Below are positions 3 to 1,982 of a stretch of 51,730 nt of DNA, piece by piece. The stretch comes from Desulfobacterales bacterium. GTDB lineage: Bacteria; Desulfobacterota; Desulfobacteria; Desulfobacterales; C00003060. Both the position numbers and the translations under genes were made by a program. The first letter of the stretch is position 1. Each line of letters starts with the position of its first letter. The stretch is taken from assembly GCA_013375375.1 (NCBI GenBank), contig JABXJX010000005.1:1-51730 (forward strand), in the 5' to 3' direction. The notes below the pieces were generated by a model, which was given only the letters and a program-made list of their open reading frames with translations, was not told the origin of the DNA and did not search any database.

Positions 3-1040
3 TTAATGCGCTCCATACCCTTGTGCATACCCCTTTCTGACGATCTTTGCAATCGATTCGATTTCGTCAATGAGCTTGTAGAATTTTTCAGGCTTAAGGG
101 ATTGAGCTCCGTCACAAAGGGCATGCTCCGGATCCGGATGGACCTCGATCAGCAGGCCGTCGGCCCCAACCGCGACAGCCGCCTTGGCCAGAGGGAGCAC
201 GAACTTCCACTGGCCGATAGCGTGGCTGGGATCAACAATGACCGGCAAGTGGGTTTTATCCTTGAGCACCGGCACCGCGCTGATATCAAGGGTGTTGCGC
301 ATGGCGGTTTCAAAGGTGCGAATCCCCCGTTCGCAGAGCATGACTTGATCGTTGCCGGACGCCAATATGTACTCCGCGGACATAAGCAGCTCTTCAAGGG
401 TGGTCATCATGCCCCTTTTTAAAAGAACCGGCTTTTTCGCAAGACCGACCTTTTTCAACAGGACAAAATTCTGGACGTTTCTGGCGCCCACTTGAAGCAC
501 GTCCGCATAACTTTCAACAAGTTCTACATCCGAGGAACTCATGACCTCGGTAACTATGGGAAGCCCCGTCTTTTCCCGGGTACGTGCCAAGATCTTCAAG
601 CCTTCTTCTCCCAACCCCTGAAAACTATACGGAGATGTCCTTGGCTTAAAGGCCCCCCCTCTCAGCATAGAAGCCCCGGCCTTCTTTACAACAAGGGCGG
701 CCTCCATGAGCTGCTCTTCGCTTTCCACGGCGCAGGGACCTGCCATGACCACGCATTTTGGCCCGCCTATCTCCACGTCACCCACCTTAATCACGGTGTT
801 CCCCTCTTTGGTCTCCCGGCTTGCAAGCTTGTAAGGGGCCAAGATCGGCACGACCTTGTCAACCCCCGGCATGGTCTCTACGTGTTTCAAAGCCACTTTC
901 CCCCTCTCATCCCCAACGGCTCCGATAATAGTCCTGTCTGTCCCTTTTGACACATGTGCCTTGTACCCTGCCGATTCTATCCGTTCGATCACGTTATCAA
1001 GCTCTTGTTGATCGGCCTTCCTCTTCATGACAATAATCAT
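3..1040 (-). CDS. aroF: 3-deoxy-7-phosphoheptulonate (DAHP) synthase
   Basis: This 345-residue protein catalyses the first step of the shikimate pathway: phosphoenolpyruvate plus erythrose-4-phosphate gives DAHP. Residues 1-70 form a ferredoxin-like N-terminal domain ([20 protein letters not shown]), typical of the AroF/AroA(I-beta) type, where it serves in feedback control. Residues from about 85 form the TIM-barrel catalytic domain, with [23 protein letters not shown] and the late motif [12 protein letters not shown]. Length is normal and the stop is inside the window. The start is chosen because AAGGAGG lies seven bases upstream. Expression is probably controlled by the attenuator directly upstream (leader peptide and two hairpins). 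Identification is firm; which aromatic amino acid inhibits the enzyme cannot be read from the sequence. Confidence 0.97.
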
Positions 1041-1065
1041 GGGTCAACCTCCTTCTCTTACAAAT

Positions 1066-1098
1066 AAAAAAGGCCGCGTGAGATCTGTCTTCGCGGCC
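1066..1098 (-). terminator. second leader hairpin of aroF
   Basis: Read on the minus strand, GGCCGCG (1098-1092) pairs with CGCGGCC (1078-1072), and six T follow (1071-1066). It lies between the main attenuator hairpin and the aroF ribosome binding site, so it would act as a second conditional or back-up terminator. Its 5' arm can also pair in part with the 3' arm of the first hairpin. Confidence 0.7.
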
Positions 1099-1112
1099 TG
1101 TTAGCAAAAAAC

Positions 1113-1150
1113 AAAAAAGCCGCGGACAGGTTATCCGGCCTGCCCGCGGC
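1113..1150 (-). terminator. attenuator terminator of aroF (region 3:4)
   Basis: On the minus strand GCCGCGGGCAGG (1150-1139) pairs with CCTGTCCGCGGC (1130-1119), giving a 12-bp stem with one G-U pair and an 8-nt loop. Six T follow at 1118-1113. It begins 26 nt after the leader-peptide stop codon, where a transcription attenuator is expected. Its 5' arm is also the partner of the antiterminator strand within the leader-peptide gene. Confidence 0.88.
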
Positions 1151-1269
1151 TTGGAGTTATTATTGTCTATTCTTTGCTAAAAAATCCTTCTGTCAAGCTG
1201 TGGGCAGACCCGTCCAAAATACCAATAATAATAGTAGTAAAAAAACAGCCCCGTCTCCGTATGTCTGCC
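1137..1269 (-). promoter_or_regulatory. alternative pairings of the aroF attenuator (regions 1, 2, 3)
   Basis: Region 1, GGCAGAC (1269-1263, leader codons 4-6), is complementary over 7 bp to region 2, GTCTGCC (1209-1203, codons 24-26). The ten aromatic codons lie in the loop between them. Region 2 extended, GGTCTGCCC (1210-1202), also pairs over 9 bp, with one G-U, with region 3, GGGCAGGCC (1145-1137). Region 3 overlaps the 5' arm of the terminator. The 1:2, 2:3 and 3:4 helices are therefore mutually exclusive in the classic attenuation order. The pairings are visible in the sequence; the regulatory behaviour is inferred. Confidence 0.85.
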
Positions 1270-1278
1270 ATTCTCCAT
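1177..1278 (-). CDS. aromatic-amino-acid leader peptide of aroF (33 aa)
   Basis: The short reading frame starts at ATG 1278-1276 and stops at TAG 1179-1177. Residues 12-21 read FFYYYYYWYF, ten aromatic residues in a row. GGAG lies seven bases before the ATG, so initiation is well supported. The gene sits between a promoter-like sequence and two tandem terminator hairpins ahead of DAHP synthase. Ribosome stalling in the run when charged tRNA-Phe, -Tyr or -Trp is scarce would leave region 2 free to form the antiterminator. Reaching the stop codon would cover region 2 and let the terminator form. The mix of Phe, Tyr and Trp codons suggests sensing of all three end products. A chance run of this kind in exactly this place is very unlikely. 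Confidence 0.88.
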   Translation of the reverse strand: MENGRHTETGLFFYYYYYWYFGRVCPQLDRRIF

Positions 1279-1308
1279 GTTTTTTCTCCATGCCACAGTT
1301 TGAATTAA

Positions 1309-1339
1309 ATTAAATGCCATATTTTACCCGTAGTGTCAA
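1309..1339 (-). promoter_or_regulatory. aroF: probable aroF leader promoter
   Basis: On the minus strand TTGACA (1339-1334) is followed by a weak -10, either CATTTA (17-nt spacer) or TTTAAT (1314-1309, 19-nt spacer). It lies about 30 nt upstream of the leader-peptide start, as an attenuator-controlled operon requires. Confidence 0.55.
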
Positions 1340-1425: not shown

Positions 1426-1982
1426 ATGAATCCTCAAACCCTTATTAAATCCATTTTGGACGAAAACCGAAAGCTCCTGGCAATGGTCTCAAAGGAGGAA
1501 GTTGATCATCTAATCGAAGGGCTGGACAAGGCAGACAGGATCTTTTGTGCCGCCCAAGGGAGATCGGGATATATCCTGCGTTCTTTTTGCATGCGGCTAA
1601 TGCAACTCGGATATCCGTCCTTCTTTGTTGGTGAAACCATAACCCCCGGGATCGGCAAAAGAGACATGCTCATTGTGCTTTCCGGTTCCGGACAAACCAT
1701 TTTAACACAAGAATGGGTCAGGGTAGCCCAACAGCAGGGGGCAACGACTGTTGGCGTAATAGGGATCGAGGATTCACCAATCGGGGTGTCCTCGATTACA
1801 GTCTCTGCCTTGCAGCAGGATCAAAGGCGGAATTTTCCAATGGGTCTAACTGCATCCAGCCACCTGGGTCTTTGTTTGAGCAGGCGGCCTTTGTCTTACT
1901 TGAATCAATCGTACTGGCATTATACCAGAGGCAGGGAAGTGACCCTCAAACAATACTGGACCGACACGCAAATTTAGGGTAG
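1426..1982 (+). pseudogene. hxlB: 6-phospho-3-hexuloisomerase, frameshifted
   Basis: The SIS-domain isomerase HxlB (PHI) converts D-arabino-3-hexulose-6-phosphate to fructose-6-phosphate, partnering the hxlA product encoded next. The frame from ATG 1426 carries the N-terminal two thirds, including the SIS motifs AAQGRSGYILRSF and LSGSGQT. From about position 1785 homology continues in a different frame, which gives the typical C-terminus IQPPGSLFEQAAFVLLES and DRHANLG and stops with TAG at 1980-1982. A G4 run near 1782-1787 lies at the transition; one extra G would restore a full-length protein of about 185 residues. The first frame alone ends at 1977 with an unrelated tail. It could be a real inactivating deletion, a homopolymer sequencing error or, less likely, programmed frameshifting. 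AGGA lies upstream of the start. Confidence 0.82.

Follow-up and report, generated by a model that had tools for sequence, protein, structure and literature searches.

The leader of a DAHP synthase gene in a Desulfobacterales bacterium is very probably a ribosome-mediated transcription attenuator of the trp, phe and his kind, one that controls the common aromatic pathway. In the window (the whole stretch of DNA that was analysed, 51,730 nucleotides), sequence inspection places this compact leader on the minus strand, flanked by the DAHP synthase gene on one side and a divergent hxlB-like gene on the other. Along that strand the parts follow in the order TTGACA, GGAGA, a 33-codon open reading frame (ORF), two hairpins each followed by T6 (the first of 12 bp), AAGGAGG and the gene itself. 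Four components of such an attenuator are found here: a short ORF with its ribosome-binding site, a cluster of cognate codons, an intrinsic terminator and a mutually exclusive antiterminator. The features are as follows, read from the sequence unless other grounds stand in brackets.

1334-1339, minus strand: −35-like TTGACA of the putative leader promoter
1311-1319, minus strand: weak extended −10-like TGG-CATTTA, 17 nt after TTGACA
1285-1289, minus strand: ribosome-binding site GGAGA of the leader ORF
1177-1278, minus strand: leader peptide ORF, 33 residues and a stop codon, MENGRHTETGLFFYYYYYWYFGRVCPQLDRRIF (sequence; homologous ORFs in same-genus relatives)
1216-1245, minus strand: ten consecutive aromatic codons, FFYYYYYWYF, residues 12-21 (sequence; shuffles; relatives)
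1263-1269, minus strand: segment 1, 5′ arm of helix 1:2, GGCAGAC (pairing confined to this genome and, in part, G001)
1269-1263 with 1209-1203, minus strand: helix 1:2, 7 bp, GGCAGAC with GUCUGCC
1202-1210, minus strand: segment 2, GGUCUGCCC, of which 1209-1203 also pairs with segment 1 (2:3 pairing; conservation)
1137-1145, minus strand: segment 3, GGGCAGGCC, the 3′ arm of the antiterminator, which overlaps the 5′ arm of the terminator (pairing analysis)
1210-1202 with 1145-1137, minus strand: helix 2:3, the antiterminator, 9 bp with one G-U, GGUCUGCCC with GGGCAGGCC
1113-1150, minus strand: first intrinsic terminator, helix 3:4 and T6 (terminator prediction; covariation)
1150-1139 with 1130-1119, minus strand: helix 3:4, 12 bp, GCCGCGGGCAGG with CCUGUCCGCGGC
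1066-1099, minus strand: second hairpin, helix 5:6 (1099-1092 with 1078-1071) and T6 (sequence; genus alignment)
1117-1124, minus strand: part of segment 4 that could pair with 1099-1092 in a hypothetical helix 4:5
1048-1054, minus strand: Shine-Dalgarno AAGGAGG of the DAHP synthase gene
3-1040, minus strand: type I-beta DAHP synthase, called aroF here (TIGR01361, 408 bits; NF006421, 521 bits)

The sequence-only reading of this DNA had described a leader peptide with ten aromatic residues preceded by a ribosome-binding site, and both are present essentially where they had been placed, the latter as GGAGA at 1289-1285. The aromatic run comprises 6 Tyr, 3 Phe and 1 Trp and lies beyond what shuffling produces, as the longest run reaches at most 6 in 60 dinucleotide shuffles of the window and at most 7 in 5000 shuffles of the leader region. 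FFYYYYYWYF is the sole aromatic run of at least five residues in the 51.7-kb window. Its core pattern TWYTWYTAYTAYTAYTGGTWYTWY has a single occurrence in this genome and, among 40 genomes searched, is found in 3 others, where it likewise lies in the leader of this gene. None of 200 shuffles folds as well as the 270-nt region (z −4.5). The promoter that had been read from TTGACA is a mixed case: the box is present at 1339-1334, most upstream regions of the genus retain it at a similar spacing before the leader, and TGGCATT is found in many relatives, but the −10 box is weak and a consensus promoter scan does not list the site, which it misses because the −10 is poor.

The leader is widely retained within the genus. 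Nearly all same-genus genomes carry a close orthologue of the DAHP synthase (81-89% identical), and 18 upstream regions, our own included, were long enough for scanning. An automated rule recognizes a mixed aromatic leader in 14 of the 18, and beyond that count the run is present with a truncated start at L054. The runs vary (FFYYYYYWYF, FSYYYYYWYF, FYFGYYYWFF and FYYYYYCYFG are among them) while relatives retain a YYY(Y)W core, and the genus leaders are Tyr-rich. ORFs similar to the leader ORF also occur in other families. An intact leader was not found within 1500 nt of three genus orthologues (L055, L056 and L060); at these loci the gene is preceded by remnants of hairpins and by inserted sequence.

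Helices 2:3 and 3:4 are mutually exclusive, and both are conserved. Alignment of relatives' upstream regions, the check that the sequence-only reading had proposed, shows that the aromatic run and the two helices are kept. In a 13-genome genus alignment, 92% of cells are paired in helix 2:3 compared with 25-53% when the arms are slid, with weak covariation (one two-sided change within the genus). Helix 3:4 is paired in 95% of cells and includes a C-G/G-C swap, that is, covariation; none of 500 shuffles reaches its score. Segment 2 sits within the end of the leader ORF; its conservation extends across the genus and to Syntrophales-like leaders. The second hairpin with T6 that had been noted after the first terminator is likewise present (1099-1092 with 1078-1071, then T6), and is 88% paired in the genus alignment, where 12 of the 13 members keep it. 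Of the three mutually exclusive helices originally described, helix 1:2 fared differently: it can form in this genome but is not conserved at these positions in the genus alignment, where 58% of its cells are paired versus 59.9% in shuffles, and a conserved 1:2 protector helix there was rejected because genus pairing is no better than in shuffles. Also rejected, as a pausing signal, was the SD-like AGGAGG of the leader tail: it falls only slightly below shuffles of matched composition (z about −0.75 for the genus and close to 0 for some of the other groups).

We propose that transcription would start near 1305 and that the 33-residue leader peptide would be translated. With charged tRNA for Tyr, Phe or Trp scarce, the ribosome would stall within FFYYYYYWYF, so that segment 2 (1210-1202) would stay unoccupied and could pair with segment 3 once the latter is made; the resulting 2:3 antiterminator would keep 3:4 from forming, and polymerase would read into the DAHP synthase operon. 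With all three aromatics plentiful, the ribosome would cover segment 2 and prevent 2:3, so that 3:4 would form and transcription would stop. The promoter, stalling, termination and the action of each amino acid alone are all four predicted steps.

Folding with a ribosome mask agrees with a model in which ribosome position decides the antiterminator, most of the run permitting 2:3 and positions past the run blocking it. Transcripts truncated after segment 3 were folded with a 30-nt mask, a model that leaves out kinetics and steric effects beyond the mask. Across the genus, P(2:3) is mostly about 0.5-1 (outside G000 typically at least 0.85) as long as the A site holds an aromatic codon no later than the Trp, is weaker over the last two aromatic codons and falls to 0 within about two codons beyond the run. 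In this genome it is scattered within the run, 0.22-0.98 up to the Trp codon, because 1:2 competes. The mean over 59 mixed-leader loci with a terminator, which are related and so do not give independent counts, is 0.76 for a ribosome within the run and 0.20 for one beyond it. RNA without a ribosome is predicted to favour 2:3 in most relatives, where 1:2 is not conserved; this counts against the attenuator reading, as do the scatter in this genome, the weak covariation of 2:3 and the three genus orthologues in which no intact leader was found.

The downstream gene does encode a DAHP synthase, as the sequence-only reading had it, but one of the B. subtilis/T. maritima type (type I-beta, TIGR01361) and not of the E. 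coli AroF type. The contig edge just beyond this gene ends the window. Elsewhere the gene heads longer arrays: at L083 the order is aroF-aroB-(chorismate mutase-aroE fusion)-aroA-aroK-aroC, and in Syntrophales-like loci aroB and aroE follow the mixed-leader DAHP synthase. In this genome aroB is found right at an edge of contig C99, which fits an operon of this order broken by assembly. On the other side of the leader, the hxlB-like ORF (6-phospho-3-hexuloisomerase; 1426-1982, plus strand) matches its family only in residues 8-133, with a plausible C-terminal part in another frame at 1713-1982, which suggests a frameshift or an assembly error.

A wider survey, drawing on searches at genus, order, class and phylum level and on 80 named loci, covered 243 distinct upstream regions of DAHP synthase genes. 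An aromatic-rich leader precedes the gene in 103 of the 243, compared with 60 of 2430 shuffles (2.5%). By composition these leaders divide into 60 mixed, 30 Trp-rich and 12 Phe-only, a rough automatic typing that placed a few Phe-class leaders (L078, L104, L105) among the mixed ones; for the tree these were reassigned manually. On average the mixed leaders contain 3.7 Phe, 3.6 Tyr and 1.0 Trp, and nearly all of the 60 have a Trp codon (mean 1.03 per 14-residue window). They stand before the DAHP synthase that heads the aro operon, and 43 of 56 DAHP synthases at least 61.5% identical have a mixed Phe/Tyr/Trp leader. Phe leaders (...FGRFFFxFRSVHPVV) stand before DAHP synthase-prephenate dehydratase fusions, including this genome's own paralogue, and Trp leaders (WWW) before a third DAHP synthase class. 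Mapped on the protein tree, leader types require 39 changes versus 98.6 in shuffles. Judged by sequence comparison, leader type is matched to DAHP synthase class in Desulfobacterota, and apparently in other phyla as well. Mixed leaders also appear in single loci labelled Calditrichota, Acidobacteria and Planctomicrobium, these being few loci with metagenome labels. T-boxes, which sense tRNA, occupy the corresponding place upstream of the orthologous DAHP synthase in 6 of 12 Firmicutes-type loci scanned (among L122-L189). Two tRNA genes were observed near leaders of the survey. This genome's second DAHP synthase, the prephenate dehydratase fusion with a Phe-rich leader (L002, 1-4020), has a tRNA-Leu(CAA) gene just upstream on the same strand, and a tRNA-Phe gene (L140, 2554-2629) lies near an aromatic leader region on the opposite strand.

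Complementarity between the leader tail and the 5′ arm of the terminator recurs beyond the genus, with a mean z of −3.2 and p<0.01 in 37 of the 59 related loci. Upstream complementarity of the 1:2 type is enriched more weakly, at p<0.05 in 30 of the 59, and not in most genus members.

That Phe, Tyr and Trp supply is integrated in one leader, as first proposed from this sequence, is a prediction supported by leader composition across relatives; the Phe/Tyr leader of C. glutamicum, however, is reported to respond to Phe only. A substantial minority chance falls, in our estimate, to a classical attenuator that senses mainly Tyr, perhaps Phe, with the single Trp codon passive and no true integration of three amino acids. 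The run here, with 6 Tyr to 3 Phe and 1 Trp, and the Tyr-rich leaders of the genus fit this description; the other two amino acids could be left to the fusion class with Phe leaders and the class with Trp leaders, and C. glutamicum aroR carries Phe-Tyr-Phe, yet only Phe matters. Against a passive Trp codon stand its presence in nearly all mixed leaders, at a mean of 1.03 per 14-residue window, and the mask model, in which a ribosome stalled at Trp is still predicted to yield high P(2:3).

Arrest by the nascent peptide itself, as in TnaC or SecM, with the aromatic peptide in the exit tunnel halting the ribosome via a free amino acid or factor, is very improbable. A long aromatic stretch could contact the tunnel, but arrest peptides keep specific residues, whereas the order and identity of the aromatics here vary freely (FFYYYYYWYF, FYFGYYYWFF, FYGYWFYNYY, FYFWFGFYFR), and the residues after the run (VCPxLRR) follow RNA segment 2. 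Least credible of all is the idea that the short ORF is incidental and that the operon is insulated by a pair of ordinary terminators placed back to back: both hairpins do resemble strong intrinsic terminators, but aromatic leaders at DAHP synthase genes are far above shuffles, the leader is complementary to the terminator, and leader type matches enzyme class.

For the attenuator itself, the second hairpin raises the prospect of a six-segment cascade, a tentative extension that we think rather unlikely. The OFF state would combine 3:4 with 5:6 and the ON state 2:3 with 4:5, so that one ribosome decision would open two terminators in series: stalling would disarm the first terminator, and the freed arm 4 would pair with arm 5 (CGCGGCUU with AGGCCGCG), disarming the second. 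A second terminator-like hairpin occurs within 60 nt in 31 of the 59 related loci. Among the four possible cross-pairings, enrichment versus mismatched partners is highest for 4:5, though modest (mean z −1.0). Given 2:3, folding predicts that 4:5 forms ahead of the synthesis of segment 6 in 12 of 12 genus members tested. In folded full-length transcripts 5:6 usually wins over 4:5, and any 4:5 effect would therefore be kinetic. The tandem hairpins of this window (1150-1071) and of homologous loci share a lineage-specific core (CCGCGG here, CCATGG in Syntrophales-like loci, and CCCCGGG), which fits the cascade but may also reflect duplication.

The working principle would be that of the trp, phe and his attenuators, and the three-aromatic version and the matching to enzyme class are the candidate new part. 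Enterobacterial pheL/pheA, pheM/pheST and trpL/trp likewise combine a short ORF of cognate codons with an exclusive antiterminator and terminator ahead of a biosynthetic or synthetase operon, but they answer mainly to one amino acid and have other targets. Leaders that answer to several related amino acids are found in the ilvGMEDA and thrABC attenuators of E. coli, where these are the branched-chain amino acids or Thr/Ile and not the aromatic trio. No Rfam family reaches its gathering score in the window: Phe_leader (RF01859) scores 18.3 bits at this element against a gathering score of 55, trpB and PyrG_leader give weak scores well below threshold, and the T-box model (RF00230) has no match. 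The closest precedent is the aroR-aroF attenuator of C. glutamicum (Neshat et al. 2014, reviewed in PMC11802643; the leader is noted too in PMC4046766), whose Phe-Tyr-Phe leader is reported to respond to Phe and not to Tyr; leader-peptide control of DAHP synthase is therefore already known in another lineage. As here, an aromatic-codon leader peptide lies upstream of a DAHP synthase operon whose transcription is regulated, with reported induction under Phe limitation. The actinobacterial leader has Phe-Tyr-Phe, whereas the present one, in another phylum, has ten aromatic codons of three kinds and tandem terminators. In Geobacter, a predicted short RNA element, Gmet_R0069/GSUR082, is described in an excerpt of PMC2700814 as conserved 5′ of aroG-2, a T. 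maritima-type DAHP synthase gene. That excerpt mentions no leader peptide or attenuation. The element is probably of the same kind, since the Geobacteraceae loci L119 and L120 carry aromatic leaders. No DAHP synthase attenuator is reported in work on delta-proteobacterial regulation (PMC545781), premature terminators (PMC2965389) or actinobacterial RNA elements (PMC1262725). Neither a leader reading all three aromatics nor a match of leader type to DAHP synthase class was found described in the open-access papers searched, which is no proof of novelty.

If this reading is right, entry into the aromatic pathway in these bacteria would be controlled by codon composition alone, with one DAHP synthase class reading all three aromatics, another Phe and a third Trp. 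Leader peptides would then perform the division of labour for which E. coli uses the TyrR and TrpR repressors, and the roles of isoenzymes could be predicted simply from upstream sequence. The element would also make it possible to test how three amino acids are weighed by a single leader.
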